Positions 3,177-22,847 of a stretch of 36,807 nt of DNA are shown here, piece by piece. The notes under the pieces were generated by a model. That model was given only the letters and a program-made list of their open reading frames with translations. It was not told where the DNA came from and made no database searches. The stretch lies in IMG/VR virus record IMGVR_UViG_3300021197_000278, positions 1-36,807 of that record. One strand, given 5' to 3'. The stretch is from a virus. Each line of letters begins with the position of its first letter. Position 1 is the stretch's first letter. The position numbers and the translations under genes were made by a program.

Positions 3177-6100
3177 ATGAGCGAATTTTTTGGAAGAAGA
3201 ACGCCCGGATTTGCTCCGGGGTATACCGATGTCCTTGACGGGCGGCAGACGTATGACCCTGATTTACTTACGGGTGATCGCTACATGAATGACACTAGCA
3301 GAGACACGCAAGACCTCATGTCTATGCTTAACTCTTATTTTGAATCCTTGAATGTAAGTAAGGCTGTAAGAGAAACAACCAACGCCTTTGTTTTGGGGCT
3401 TCAAGGTATGCAACGCAACCTAGTTGAGTTAGGTATGCGACAGGTGTTTGACCAACTTGAGGCAGGTGCCGATAACATAGATAACCCGCTTCGTGGGGGC
3501 TTCATAGGTGGACTAGGGCAGTTAGAGTCTTATGCGCCAGAGTTATATGAATTCTTTGACGATATTTTTGGTGATAACGACACGATATCTAATATAGAGT
3601 TTGGGTCAGCTTTTGGCATACCTGAAGAAAAATTACCTTTCACAGAAAGCACACTGTTAGAAGCCGTTAACAAACTACCTACAGAACTTACTGATGGCAA
3701 CTCTTACGAGTTATCAGATGAAGACAAAACAGCATTATTAGGTAGTGATCCAACAGAAGTGGATTTAAACGATTACGTAGACGCCCGATATGTTACTGCC
3801 GCAGAAGCTGCAGACATATTTAAAGAACAAAATGGGTATAAGCCTAATAAAGAAGAACTTGACTTATTTAGAGGGCAACGAGATCAGGTTGCAACAGAAC
3901 AACAAATAGCAGAGCACGTTGACCCACGCCAGTTAACATTAGCAGAACTAGAAGGTATCGCAGCCGAGCAAGGGTATAAATTAAATGTCGGTGATATTGA
4001 AGAACGTGTGGGGCAAGCAAGTGAAATTGATGATGATGACTACGAGCGTCGGTTAGGTGTAGATGCAGGTGTTTATTTTGACCAAAATGCAGTGACCAGC
4101 CAAGAACTAATCGATATGTCTAATGACCCAAATGTCGGGTATGTGTTCAGTCAAGAAGAACTTGAAGATTTAGTTGGCAATACTGATGAAGCAGCGTTAA
4201 AAGACGAATATGACCTGCTAGGTACATCCCGCGAAGAATTAGTACAAATAGCTCTTGATGAAGGCTATCGTATAGAAGATCTTACCGAAGAAGAAATAGA
4301 ATCCCTTATCGGTAACGTAAAAGAATCAAAAGCGGTTGACCTCATTGACCCCCGTGCTACATCAGTAGTAGAGGTGCAAGAACTTGTTAAAAATCGAACT
4401 GGTGATGACATTTCGACTACAGCAGCTCAACAGATACTGACCACAATACGTGACGAGAATGATTTAGACTCTAATGTACCGATTAGCGAAAATCAGCTAA
4501 ACACGCATGTAAGAGAAAACATAGAACTAAACATTGGTTATCAAATAGAACGGATGACCACGGCTGCACGCAATCTTATATTCGGGACTGGTCCCGGTGG
4601 TAAACCTAAGACAGTCCTTGAAATAATGGATGAGATCCTAGAGCAAAGAGCTGCTGGGCCAGCAGGTATGGGTGTCCCTATCAAAGTAACTTTTGACCCT
4701 ACACGAGGTACATGGGCTGAACTTAAGATTCCCGTACCATTGCCCGTTAATGGCCCTCCTATTGAAATTCCATTGTTTGATACAGAGGGTAACTATGAAG
4801 GACCAGCTAGTGTAAGTGAATTATTAGTAGACCCTACATCAGGAGTTGTTACTCAAGTAGTAGACGGTGTAGAACAAACCATAGGTAGGATAAAAGATGG
4901 GGCACGCACCGCCGTTGAAATATTCGGTACTGCGGGGGAAGTTATACGAACAGTACCTATATTCAATACCGGAGAGGTAGACGAAAACGGGTTTTCAATA
5001 TATCAGCCTACAGATTGGACAGAAGGGGAAGACTACAACCCTTGGGAATTAGACCCTGACAATGACGGCACTATAAACACACAGATGGATGCAAATGGTA
5101 ACGAACTCACAGGTTTTGATCCAGAAACTGGGTTTCCTGTATACGAACAACTCGAAGATACCGATGATGAAGAAAGTAGGACAGAAAGTATCTACGATGT
5201 AGAACCGGGCGCTACAGATTCCGAAGCCGCAGAAGATTTTTACGGTAATTTTCCAGAGGGTACAGACTCTGAAGAAAGTAGTACCCCAAGCCCTTACGAC
5301 GAAGATGCCGAAGCCGCAGAAGAGTTTTACGGTAATTTTCCAGATGCGCTAGAAGAACAGAAAGAAGCCATCCTCTCTACACTAAGTGAAGAACTAGATG
5401 CGTTGGGCATTGCCGTAGAAGATGTAGAAGCCATTCTAAATAACGTCGAAGCTACCTTAGAAGACGTAGCCACCACTGACGATCTTGATGCACTGCGTGA
5501 CAATATTAATGAAGACCTAGAAGAGAGTCTTAGTGCGTTAGGGTTAGATATAGAAGAAGTAAATGACATTGTAGATGGTGTAGCTTCTGATCTTGATACC
5601 CTTAGTGAAGATGTAGCTGCTGTTGGTGAAGCGGTAGAAACAGTTAGTGACCAGTTAGGTCAACCTGCTGAATTTGATGCTGAAGGCAATATAGTATCGG
5701 GATCTACGGGGTTATACGCAGAGATAGATGCTCTAGTAGCAGAAGGTGCTAGTCGTGCAGAGGCTGTAGATCTGGTTCTATCGGGTTTAGCTACCGAATT
5801 AAATACCACTAAAACTGATATTCTTGAACAACTTGGTACTACCGAAGATAACCTTTCTACTGAAATACAGGCTGTTGGTGAAGCAGTAGAAACTGTTAGC
5901 GGTCAGGTCGAAGACCTCGATAAAGAACTAAATGATCGCATAGACGCGTTAGTAGACCAAGGTGCTACAGAATACGAAGCCTTATCAGGCGCTATATCTA
6001 GCCTAGCCTCAGACCTTGACATCTCAGAAGAAAACATACTAAGTGCGATAGCGACGAGTGATAGTGACATCAAAGCACTTATTGGCACCCCTGCTATAGA

Positions 6101-18980: not shown

Positions 18981-19208
18981 TCACAGAAGACGCCAAACAC
19001 GAACCCCCCATCTACCGCTAACTGCCCCTACCCGTGTCTCGATATCCCAACCCCGCTTTTGCGTTATATGTCTTACCTGACTTACCGCCTTGTTAGTGTT
19101 TATGCAGGGGATAAATATAGACATACCCACCTGCAATTCATCCCACTTGACTACGACCCGTACCCCATCGGGATATAGATCATACGTCCTCAGAACTCCC
19201 TTCCTCAT
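18981..19208 (-). CDS. Small conserved-looking phage protein (75 aa)
   Basis: Product MRKGVLRTYDLYPDGVRVVV..., with a middle motif SIFIPCINTNKAVSQV and a C-terminal GVRVWRLL. This pattern (a hydrophobic strand, PCxNT, a helix, then a Gly-x-RVWR end) recurs, in my recollection, in small phage proteins near replication genes; it has the look of a compact alpha/beta nucleic-acid-binding fold. The ATG at 19208 has GAGG six bases upstream and overlaps the end of the primase-helicase gene by 29 bases. An ATG at 19214 in the same frame has no usable spacing. No named family; function unknown. Confidence 0.65.
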   Translation of the reverse strand: MRKGVLRTYDLYPDGVRVVVKWDELQVGMSIFIPCINTNKAVSQVRHITQKRGWDIETRVGAVSGRWGVRVWRLL

Positions 19209-22014
19209 CTGCATCCTCAGTAAGCTGGACTACAATAACGTCCTGCCCTTTAGTCTGGAAGGGCGTGCCTCTACCGAGCCTTACCTTATCTCGCTTTGCG
19301 CCCAAGTTTTTTACAAGATCGTTGACGAAAGCCCCGTAGTTTATCTGCTGTTGACCGCACCATACCCGAAACGGTTTCGGTATAAGATACAATTTCCTAA
19401 CGTCGGGTTCGTATCGAGCGACCAATTTATTTCGTGGTAACGCATCTGGCATAATTATGGAGTCCATAGCCTCACCGCTCTGTTTCCGTAGATCACTAGT
19501 GCTTTTTATCCTTAAGATGTTATCGTAATGCTCATTGATGTATTCGTTTAGTGTTTGCTCTAGCGATACCGCCATATCTCCAGACCGACGTTTGTTATCT
19601 TTAAGCGTAGCTACGGACCATTTTGTAATAGCGCCTATGTCGAAGTTTATTAAGCCTATGTGTTTAGCAAGTATACCTCCACTAATAGCCGCCGTAGATC
19701 CCGCTGACCAAAAACGGTTTTCTGAAGCCAACTCAGCCTCCGCGTCGATCTGCACCTGCACCTCTCTCACAATCTGCTCTGATTGCGTTGGATTTTCCAT
19801 AATGTATTTAACTATAAGAGGTCCAGCGTGCCCGTAACATTGCTCCAGCTTTGCACTAAAAGCATCCGTCTCTGCTTTAGTGTCAGGACTGTTGAATATC
19901 TTATCTACACGTACTTCAAGTATCCGCTGCGCTTCCGCACTTGGATTAGCCTTACGTAAACTAATACGTTCTATGGCGCTGGTGTTTCCCGTAGTAATCG
20001 CAAGAAGGCTCCAAGGTTCACCTCTAAGACGCTCTGTGTTACTACCGCTCACCATACGTGCTCTTTGTCTGCCTGAAGTGAATTGGTACGCTAACGTGCT
20101 TAAGTCTTCTGGGCTAGTGTTCGTCATCTCATCTATAAACAACGGCAAATTATGTAGTATCTCTGAACGTAACATCTTACTGGCATGTGTATCTTGCTCA
20201 TCTAACACTAAGGCTTTAGGGTTGCCCCAAATAGTTGCTGCGGCAAGCATTGCGGTGGTCTTACCAAGCCCAGAATCTTTACTATATAAGTGCATAGCAG
20301 AGCACGCTATGTTGCCCATGAATTGCATTAGTATCGACCCAAATCCAGCACAGATAACGTATTGATGTAGTTCAAATCCGGGCCTGTTATAGAACTCCAT
20401 TAACTCCTTCCACTCCTCAAGGGTACCTTTGGGTTCAAATGCAGGGAATAATCCCGCTGTCTGTACCGAAGGTGGATTGAAAGTAGAGCTACCATCTTTG
20501 TGTAATACTTGATTACCCAAAACAAACGCGTCTACCCCGTCTCCTACCCATCCAAATTGTCTATGTGCATTATCTGCCATTGTTGTCTCCTGTAGTTGAT
20601 TAATCCAAGTTAATATGTATTTCATAATGTCATCGACAAAGGGCACGGCTACCCCCCGCATCGCTAACTGTTTTCGAAGTTCATCTTTTGATGCCACCGC
20701 AGTAAGCGGTATCGTAAATTCTCGTACACCATCCTTGGGTAGGTGTAACCGTAGGACTATCTGCTCCCCGATTTCAGGGTCTATCACACGTTGCACTACA
20801 TAAATATCGTTCCGGTATATCTCTTTTTCATCCTCGTTACCTTCCGAATCTTTGGTACGTACATATACGCCACCATTTGCGCCACGTAGATACGGGTGTG
20901 GATACTTAGGTATGGTATAGGTGTTTATAGGTTGGTTCGGTAGGTCTAATGCTGGCACCTGCACCACATTATCTTCTTCTGTAGCTTCTTTTATCAGCTT
21001 GCCGATATATAATGGCGACCTGTACTTACCACGGTTAGGACATGCCCTACACACGTCAGGGTTCGTCTCCTCAAACTTGTAGCAGGTATATCGTTTGTCT
21101 GACGTTAGGTTATCCCACTTCGCATCTGTCTCTTGAGGGTCATACCCGTCATACCCTTTCGATATGGCATGTGCCCGTTCACGGTTACCGTCACTGCACG
21201 CTTTAAGCACCGATAACATACCGCGCCATATAGGTTCCGAAACGTTATTAGGTTCTTTCAACGCGTTGAATATTTGAGCGCAACCCTTACCGTCTTTAGA
21301 ACGTTCTATGATCCGTTTAAACCTAAACTCCTGATTTTCCAAGGCGGCGTGCAACATCGCGTCCGCGCCTTCTATCCTCTTTGTAGGAACTGGTATCATG
21401 TCAGCGCCAAGCAGAAGAGAAAAGGCATCGAAATCAACCAACGCCGAATCTGTTGACCCTATAAAATCTTCTTGTACCGGTACGTCAGGTTTATAATTGT
21501 GTGTTCTCGGTACTCGAAGTACCCGTGCAGCGTCCGCCGTTACTGCTGGGTCAGCAAGAAACTTGTTACTGGCACATAAGGACTTTAGCCGCTCTGCTAC
21601 TGGGAGCCAGTCATCCAAGCATACAGACTCTTTAAGTATCCAGTAGACATGTACGCCGCGACCAGAATTAATCATTAGGGGACGAGGTAGGGAGTTAGAC
21701 TTACAGAAGTCTTTAAGCGCGTCTAAGGCGGCTTTTTGGTTAGTAAACTCTTTGGAAGGACCACAATCTAGATCTAGGAAAAAAGTCTTTACGTATTTAA
21801 CGTTATCGACCTTGCGTGACTTATCTTCCCTGAAAGTAGATAGTGCGAAATATACATTGTACCCTTGGGTATCTAGGTCGGTTGCGGTAGTGACCAGATC
21901 ATCGACAGAGGTAAAAAACTTTTGTACCCGCCGCTCCGTCGCCGTATTAGATGCAAAAATACAATAGAGTCCGTCATTCGCTAGGGCGTCTTGTAAAAAT
22001 TTTGTTGTATCCAT
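19180..22014 (-). CDS. Primase-helicase fusion: AEP-type primase plus DUF927-like helicase
   Basis: Likely makes primers and unwinds DNA at the phage fork. Residues 1-185 show an archaeo-eukaryotic primase (RepB/prim-pol type) core: FFLDLDCG with metal-binding D81/D83, SGRGVHVYW at 117-125, and DAARVLRVPRTHNYK at about 161-175. A Cys group (C245, C311, C322, C325) may hold zinc. The helicase half has Walker A SGLGKTT (K585), Walker B LPLFIDEM (D628/E629) and a later SGSNTERLRG segment, resembling the DUF927 family. About 944 residues from the ATG at 22014 (GAG seven bases upstream); a GTG at 22041 would add nine residues but falls inside a leader stem. The C-terminus overlaps the next gene. 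Preceded by a structured leader. Confidence 0.8.
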   Translation of the reverse strand: MDTTKFLQDALANDGLYCIFASNTATERRVQKFFTSVDDLVTTATDLDTQGYNVYFALSTFREDKSRKVDNVKYVKTFFLDLDCGPSKEFTNQKAALDALKDFCKSNSLPRPLMINSGRGVHVYWILKESVCLDDWLPVAERLKSLCASNKFLADPAVTADAARVLRVPRTHNYKPDVPVQEDFIGSTDSALVDFDAFSLLLGADMIPVPTKRIEGADAMLHAALENQEFRFKRIIERSKDGKGCAQIFNALKEPNNVSEPIWRGMLSVLKACSDGNRERAHAISKGYDGYDPQETDAKWDNLTSDKRYTCYKFEETNPDVCRACPNRGKYRSPLYIGKLIKEATEEDNVVQVPALDLPNQPINTYTIPKYPHPYLRGANGGVYVRTKDSEGNEDEKEIYRNDIYVVQRVIDPEIGEQIVLRLHLPKDGVREFTIPLTAVASKDELRKQLAMRGVAVPFVDDIMKYILTWINQLQETTMADNAHRQFGWVGDGVDAFVLGNQVLHKDGSSTFNPPSVQTAGLFPAFEPKGTLEEWKELMEFYNRPGFELHQYVICAGFGSILMQFMGNIACSAMHLYSKDSGLGKTTAMLAAATIWGNPKALVLDEQDTHASKMLRSEILHNLPLFIDEMTNTSPEDLSTLAYQFTSGRQRARMVSGSNTERLRGEPWSLLAITTGNTSAIERISLRKANPSAEAQRILEVRVDKIFNSPDTKAETDAFSAKLEQCYGHAGPLIVKYIMENPTQSEQIVREVQVQIDAEAELASENRFWSAGSTAAISGGILAKHIGLINFDIGAITKWSVATLKDNKRRSGDMAVSLEQTLNEYINEHYDNILRIKSTSDLRKQSGEAMDSIIMPDALPRNKLVARYEPDVRKLYLIPKPFRVWCGQQQINYGAFVNDLVKNLGAKRDKVRLGRGTPFQTKGQDVIVVQLTEDADEEGSSEDV

Positions 22015-22026
22015 AGCTATCTCAGA

Positions 22027-22086
22027 ACCGAAAGTTACCACGGCAGGGGTAGATATCCACCCTTTTCGGTAATCCTAGCCGTGGTA
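22027..22086 (-). promoter_or_regulatory. Potential H-type RNA pseudoknot in the primase-helicase leader
   Basis: Read on the - strand: TACCACGGC (22086-22078), TAGGATT, ACCGAAA (22070-22064), a small hairpin GGGT...ACCC (22062-22047), then GCCGTGGTA (22044-22036), AC, and TTTCGGT (22033-22027). The two perfect stems (9 bp and 7 bp) cross each other, the arrangement of an H-type pseudoknot. It ends 12 bases before the ATG at 22014, next to the ribosome site (GAG). This could control translation of the primase-helicase. The complementarity is seen; folding and function are inferred. The outer 9-bp arms alone could also be a protein operator. Confidence 0.5.
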
Positions 22087-22099
22087 TAAGTTAGAAGTA

Positions 22100-22125
22100 T
22101 TGGGTACCTTCATGTACATACCCAA
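22100..22125 (-). promoter_or_regulatory. Stem-loop after the SSB gene
   Basis: A perfect 7-bp inverted repeat, TTGGGTA ... TACCCAA, with a 12-base loop, lies 11 bases after the SSB stop and 14 bases before the pseudoknot leader. It is not GC-rich and has no U-tract, so it is a poor intrinsic terminator; a processing or stability stem is as likely. Confidence 0.4.
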
Positions 22126-22136
22126 GAAAGTTGAAG

Positions 22137-22829
22137 TTAGTCGTCCCAACCCTCAACAAGCGCACTAAGATCTGCTTCTTCTTTCGGTGCGGCTGACTTC
22201 TGCTTAACTACTTTCTTCTTTGGTTCTTCAACCGGTGCCTCGACTTCTTCCACCTCTACCTCTACAACGGCTACTGGAGCAGGCGTATCGGCAAACATGT
22301 CTTCTTCTTCTTTGTCGAGTGTAAATCCGTCTACTACATCGAACGGAGATTCCGTCTGTAGCGGCACGTACTTAGTGACCTGCACTCCCCTCAAGCGTAA
22401 TGAAACTCCAGCATCTCGCATGTTATAGGGAAATAGCACTACCGCTACGTTGGCCGTACTGCCCGTGGTTAACATAAAGTTCTCAGGGCACGGCTTCTTC
22501 TTAGCATCGACTTGGCTCGGCTTAACAGTGGCTTCTTTACCGTACGCACCCTTCAACGTAGCCTTACCTATAAAGGAACCTTCTTCGTCTTTCTTGAAAG
22601 GCATTGGGATCTTTTCAGGCCACTTGGCTTCGCGTTTTTCTTTGTATACCGATGCCATAACCCCCATGAGTTCTTTGGCTTGCGCCTCAGTCATACGGAA
22701 CTGCATCGAGTAGGCCGCGCCTTCATCGAACGGGTCGCAAGGTACACTGCGATTTTCCGTCGAATCAAAGCGGTAAGTTTTGTTGATACGAGGGTACAAG
22801 ACTTCTACGTCTTTTATTAAGTAGTTCAT
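22137..22829 (-). CDS. Single-stranded DNA-binding protein, T7 gp2.5-like
   Basis: 230 residues. The N-terminal MNYLIKDVEVLYPRINKTY and the body (EENPxFI-like GSFIGKATLKGAYGKEATVKPSQVD, and FPYNMRDAGVSLRLRGVQVTKYVP) fit the OB-fold of phage SSBs such as T7 gp2.5. The tail is Glu/Val/Lys-rich, then acidic, ending EGWDD, as expected for an SSB that docks partners through an acidic C-terminus. Coats ssDNA during replication (family knowledge). ATG at 22829 has GGAG upstream; the six-residue N-terminal extension to 22847 is less likely. An internal SPFDVVDGFTLD motif is shared with the C-terminus of the upstream neighbour, hinting at a common partner. Confidence 0.7.
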   Translation of the reverse strand: MNYLIKDVEVLYPRINKTYRFDSTENRSVPCDPFDEGAAYSMQFRMTEAQAKELMGVMASVYKEKREAKWPEKIPMPFKKDEEGSFIGKATLKGAYGKEATVKPSQVDAKKKPCPENFMLTTGSTANVAVVLFPYNMRDAGVSLRLRGVQVTKYVPLQTESPFDVVDGFTLDKEEEDMFADTPAPVAVVEVEVEEVEAPVEEPKKKVVKQKSAAPKEEADLSALVEGWDD

Positions 22830-22847
22830 TATTGTTTCTCCAAACAT

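Follow-up and report, generated by a model that had tools for sequence, protein, structure and literature searches.

The SSB-primase intergenic region and its predicted fold

The window, that is, the whole 36,807-nt stretch of IMG/VR virus record IMGVR_UViG_3300021197_000278, carries on its minus strand a putative RNA element (22086-22027) flanked by two genes of the same orientation. The downstream gene (19180-22014, ATG at 22014-22012) encodes a DUF927 primase-helicase of 944 aa, with a match to Pfam PF06048 (E 8e-26) and matches to primase/helicase PHROGs. The upstream gene (22137-22847) encodes a Gp2.5-like ssDNA-binding protein (SSB; phrog_112, E 4.9e-15), which bears out an earlier note on this DNA that had placed an SSB gene directly upstream. 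The sequence ahead of the primase ATG includes a GAG triplet (22021-22023, minus strand) that weakly resembles a Shine-Dalgarno motif. Meanwhile, folding revealed an extra, lineage-specific hairpin (TTGGGTA...TACCCAA, 22100-22125, minus strand) between the SSB stop codon and the RNA element. Both arms of this hairpin co-vary in the near relatives L010 and L018, it is missing from leaders of the L051 type, and it is not followed by a T-tract. A search for an intrinsic terminator or a sigma-70 promoter at the element found neither.

The earlier note had described two crossing stems with a small hairpin in the loop, and this observation was confirmed. A 9-bp stem joins TACCACGGC (22086-22078) with GCCGTGGTA (22044-22036), and a 7-bp stem joins ACCGAAA (22070-22064) with TTTCGGT (22033-22027), all on the minus strand. 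Both stems are perfect, the inner hairpin GGGTGG-ATAT-CTACCC (22062-22047) is present, and the 7-bp stem ends 12 nt before the ATG, as had been noted. Pairs of crossing perfect stems with 9 and 7 bp or more occurred in only one of 3000 dinucleotide shuffles of the leader and in no other 125-nt segment of the 36.8-kb record; hence, their occurrence is not explained by chance.

Nevertheless, the conserved fold, as predicted from sequence comparison, is not an H-type pseudoknot. It is a three-way junction of about 50 nt with the arrangement P1-UA-P2-GAAAA-P3-CU-P1'. P1 corresponds to the 9-bp stem and P3 to the inner hairpin. P2 is a hairpin (GG-AUUA-CC, 22068-22075) that shares nucleotides with the 7-bp stem and competes with it. 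The stems are linked by the strands UA (J1/2, 22076-22077), GAAAA (J2/3, 22063-22067) and CU (J3/1, 22045-22046), and the junction ends with P1' 21 nt 5' of the primase-helicase start codon. On topology, HDV-like and hammerhead ribozymes also came into consideration, but they were rejected because a long P3 loop is lacking, the junction strands measure 2, 5 and 2 nt, there is no CUGAUGA, and no such Rfam family matched.

Conservation of the junction and relationship to int-alpA

A DNA similarity search with the leader produced no match among 50,697 phage records, and relatives were therefore taken from IMG/VR and from genomes. Relatives of the primase were retrieved from IMG/VR by protein searches and their leaders were compared; the covariation figures for P1, P2 and P3 derive from an alignment of 20 primase leaders (A2). 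The P1-P3 parse and the loop boundaries were set by our own script, and a few bacterial loops by hand.

The three stems were paired in 95.7% of the cells of this alignment, compared with 83.7% after shuffling, and 11 of the 18 pairs changed on both sides (five of nine in P1 and four of six in P3). Cells changed on both sides numbered 43, against 10.5 expected from shuffling, and the covariation score of 0.481 (0.251 when shuffled) was not equalled in any of 500 shuffles. P2, a hairpin of 2-4 bp among these leaders, was paired in 97.9% of cells, and its second pair was seen as GC, AU, CG and UA. This hairpin was absent from the earlier note, even though ACCGAAA overlaps it, and it is the element that evolution conserves. 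The J1/2 strand UA is invariant in the alignment and the same in int-alpA (RF02996), while GAAAA (GAANA-like in relatives) and CU are conserved in primase leaders, int-alpA RNAs and other phage leaders. The 20 leaders contained 32 G.T pairs but only 3 A.C mismatches, indicating that the structure belongs to the sense strand. Divergent primase homologues displayed simple hairpins only, suggesting that the element is dispensable somewhere. In the primase relatives L072, L074, L076 and L078, the upstream sequence was wholly different, and the matched start position read TTG or GTG. In L303, whose primase ORF ends at 5657 (minus strand), the primase leader had a further perfect hairpin, AATGTCTAAC/GTTAGACATT, 3' of the junction and ahead of the start codon.

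The only meaningful Rfam match of the window was to the family int-alpA (RF02996; 31.0 bits, E 4.8e-5), below the gathering cut-off of 35.8 bits, and no Rfam family matched the window at its gathering threshold. The strands UA, GAAAA and CU all lie inside this match. Relatives at or above the cut-off included the sister primase leader L227 (35.9 bits), L239 (35.8 bits) and the phage locus L233 (49.6 bits). The junction-strand pattern occurs in more than 120 stretches in IMG/VR; among ten such loci that were scanned, eight matched int-alpA at E <0.5 and three, including L227, reached the cut-off. Conversely, a covariance model built from primase leaders only (R1) detected int-alpA RNAs of E. 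coli (L099, E 1.6e-4) and Methylomonas (L127, E 7e-8). As RF02996 matches primase leaders and R1 matches int-alpA RNAs, the family link holds both ways. Over 274 genomes drawn from a class, R1 found only two and is thus too narrow for general searches. A pattern scan of genome contigs gave mostly chance matches and was replaced by a search of genomes with RF02996. INPHARED was searched for isolate phages with the loop-pairing type described below, and yielded short partial matches only, none of them full-length.

Based on these findings, we estimate a probability of roughly 60% that the window element is a divergent and reduced relative of int-alpA, located in an intercistronic region of a polycistronic phage mRNA, although by the gathering rule it is not a member of that family. 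Both share the P1-P2-P3 three-way junction with the strands UA, GAAAA and CU, and both lie between two co-directional genes, just 5' of a start codon. They differ in that the window scores below the cut-off, its P2 is shorter and its P3 loop closed, and its element is found between SSB and primase genes instead of after int or between int and alpA-type genes. Judging from these comparisons, the window belongs to a real but previously unrecognised branch of this orphan RNA family.

Genomic placement and pairing of the P3 loop

The search with RF02996 identified 55 sites in 40 of 369 sampled gammaproteobacterial genomes. When 37 bacterial sites were inspected in the right orientation, nearly all were followed by a start codon, mostly that of an ORF of 100-350 aa. 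Likewise, the RNA class was found just before a start codon, between two co-directional genes, in more than 100 phage contigs, mostly at replication genes. Of 117 phage elements, 114 preceded a start codon by 0-55 nt (median 36), and the remaining three are truncated by contig ends. The end of a co-directional ORF lay no more than 70 nt upstream in 98 of 102 phage cases, with a median gap of 17 nt. Such a stop was present in 32 of 35 bacterial cases as well, compared with 243 of 1170 random control positions. With a stop before it and a start after it in nearly all cases, the element is intercistronic. The proteins encoded downstream in phages comprised DUF927 primases, DUF1376 or O-like replication initiators, primosomal proteins, a helicase, HNH endonucleases and a DNA methylase. 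At three E. coli loci at the yicC insertion site (L099, L100 and L101), the int-alpA RNA is found just after the integrase stop codon in satellite-like islands, two of which (L099 and L100) carry the gene of a DUF927/TOPRIM primase as well.

In most branches, a segment just after P1', hereafter site 1, complements the P3 loop, and the two covary. The mean Watson-Crick run between loop and site 1 was 5.78 among bacterial elements (4.22 with permuted partners) and 6.03 among leaders of phage replication initiators (4.21 permuted), and in neither set did any of 2000 permutations score as high; these and the following loop/site permutation counts treat related sequences as exchangeable and are thus not strict probabilities. 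Co-changing loop/site pairs included CCUUCA/UGAAGG, UCAUUAA/UUAAUGA, CGCUA/UAGCG, UUCUCA/UGAGAA, CCCACUU/AAGUGGG and UAUCGCCU/AGGCGAUA. The int-alpA and replication-initiator branches have in addition a second copy of this segment, site 2, which overlaps the Shine-Dalgarno sequence. Pairing of the loop with site 2 exceeded permuted partners in both sets (4.47 vs 3.87 and 5.42 vs 4.11; each 0 of 5000 permutations as high). Where a hairpin (P4, stem of at least 4 Watson-Crick pairs) follows site 1, its loop carries site 2 in 39 of 44 cases. Methylomonas sp. LW13 encodes four int-alpA RNAs (L338, L340, L341 and L342) with three P3-loop specificities, each with its own downstream sites.

The loop/site-1 pairing is also kept in the sister primase leaders of the window (3.88 vs 3.29 permuted, 0 of 5000 as high), with pairs such as ACCGA/UCGGU, UGCCGA/UCGGCA, GUGCCG/CGGCAC and UGUGUCA/UGACACA; in a smaller, earlier primase subset (n=26), the pairing was not significant (297 of 2000). 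Consequently, the UUUCGGU of the window (22027-22033), orthologous to site 1 of the sisters, can be regarded as its descendant. In the window sub-clade, the P3 loop is reduced to a tetraloop (a 4-nt AUAU cap in the window) that has lost its partner, the complementarity to the segment after P1' seen elsewhere being absent, and neither site 2 nor P4 was present in the window. Here, UUUCGGU may pair with ACCGAAA instead, the second stem taking over, or the element could simply serve as a structured barrier or spacer against translational coupling.

Proposed mechanism, alternative explanations and known systems

The earlier note proposed that the structure controls the primase-helicase gene. What stands of this proposal is a conserved sense-strand RNA right before the start codon; control itself is something we infer from position and pairing, and translation control would be the simplest reading of the element. 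We postulate that the RNA junction forms in the polycistronic phage mRNA, between the upstream stop and the next start codon. The P3 loop would then choose between two like partners, site 1 next to P1' and site 2 at the Shine-Dalgarno sequence, and this choice may gate ribosome entry, in a direction and in response to a signal, if any, that are likewise conjectural. Such gating could let replication genes be translated independently of the upstream cistron.

Rfam files the orphan int-alpA as an sRNA, without the pairing of loop and Shine-Dalgarno region. Given its intercistronic placement and the pairing of its loop with both site 1 and the Shine-Dalgarno copy, int-alpA would make better sense as an intercistronic switch that acts in cis on translation. 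A broader proposal, which we advance tentatively and at slightly less than even odds, is that int-alpA is no sRNA but the founding piece of an extensive class of bistable intercistronic translation switches in phages and satellites, in which the loop either docks by P1' or kisses the Shine-Dalgarno sequence in the loop of the following hairpin, thereby setting the translation of replication genes. The window would represent a branch simplified around a primase-helicase.

The H-type topology put forward in the earlier note fared less well than its coordinates. It would have P1 and ACCGAAA/UUUCGGU form together, blocking ribosome loading on the primase gene. The 7-bp stem is indeed perfect in the window and retains 6-7 bp with G.U in near relatives; its duplex is worth -7.1 kcal/mol, against a gain of only about 1.3 kcal/mol from P2; and UUUCGG is kept where the P3 loop has ceased to match it. 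L066 (UUGAAA/UUUUCAG) and L094 (UGAA/UUCA) resemble isolated compensatory cases. However, of the two stems for which covariation among relatives had been at issue, the 9-bp stem covaries and the 7-bp stem does not: in the 20 leaders, the latter was paired in 90% of cells and yet displayed no compensatory change, equal to the shuffled control, and among 76 primase leaders permuted partners scored as high in 4977 of 5000 permutations. The window-like subset available for this comparison was small (n=11). Furthermore, L408 and L417 differ from the L470 group by two compensatory loop/site-1 pairs, so that site 1 changes with the P3 loop and the equivalent of the 7-bp stem is broken, and the competing P2 occupies the same nucleotides and covaries. 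We consider this explanation rather unlikely; the 7-bp stem does not define the element, although it may form in the window's own lineage.

The remaining explanations differ in what the RNA would act on. In a system like C4 or P4 CI, the RNA would be processed out and its loop would act as an antisense in trans, targeting the ribosome-binding site within the same family of transcripts and serving immunity or copy control. In its favour, the loop and its two target copies have diversified together into several specificities, and one Methylomonas genome holds loops that differ from each other. The class also occurs in satellites, and P4 has C4 RNA ahead of its primase operon. Against this, C4 has a different fold and Rfam family, the sites are on the same transcript only a few nucleotides further on, which makes cis pairing simpler, two elements of one genome (L340 and L341) have the same loop, and the window lacks both a loop partner and site 2; we regard this scenario as improbable. 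Still less probable is a single-stranded DNA structure that serves the DUF927 primase as a priming site or as an origin. The primase gene adjoins the element in the window family and DUF927 proteins are also found in int-alpA satellites, but the element is always in sense orientation between stop and start, even before HNH, methylase and helicase genes, it is complementary to the Shine-Dalgarno region, and in E. coli satellites the primase is several kb off. The lowest probability falls to the suggestion of the earlier note that the structure is an autoregulatory target of the SSB, as for T4 gp32. The Gp2.5-like gene directly upstream in the window, and the acidic, SSB-like WDD tails that end the upstream gene in the primase family, fit such a role. 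Nonetheless, gp32 binds a pseudoknot in the leader of its own gene and not of the next gene, whereas here the gene to be controlled is that of the primase. The RNA class also follows integrase genes in E. coli satellites and many unrelated genes; the three E. coli integrase loci shown have no SSB, and SSB-like tails are confined to the primase branch. As the class occurs elsewhere without an SSB, autoregulation is unsupported and would be at best a local addition.

The cis-acting switch, in turn, gives the orphan family int-alpA a concrete proposed mechanism that is testable by mutation, adds to the Rfam model a covarying pairing between loop and Shine-Dalgarno sequence, and takes the family beyond bacterial islands to phages known from metagenomes. 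If true, such a switch would be a common phage way to time the translation of replication genes within an operon, and a ligand or host factor might bind to its conserved junction.

Among known systems, the T4 gene 32 leader is likewise structured and belongs to a phage replication operon in which an SSB gene lies close by. It differs in that it controls the SSB itself, whereas the window RNA comes after the SSB gene and before the primase, and in that the window fold is a three-way junction whose other class branches have no SSB. The C4 antisense RNA, or P4 CI (RF01695), is also a phage RNA that precedes replication genes and has unpaired segments matching sites in the same transcript; its covariance model gave no match in the window, with P4 as a positive control at 74.9 bits. 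In phage P4 (L374, 8420-8705), C4, isrK and c4-a1b1 Rfam matches precede the replication operon, a different RNA in an analogous place. Lastly, the window did not match in Rfam any class of pseudoknot riboswitch that masks the Shine-Dalgarno sequence (SAM-II, preQ1 classes), and unlike these it has no known ligand; the resemblance lies in the pairing of a junction or loop with the ribosome-binding-site sequence, which in the int-alpA and replication-initiator branches would bring the P3 loop to the Shine-Dalgarno copy.
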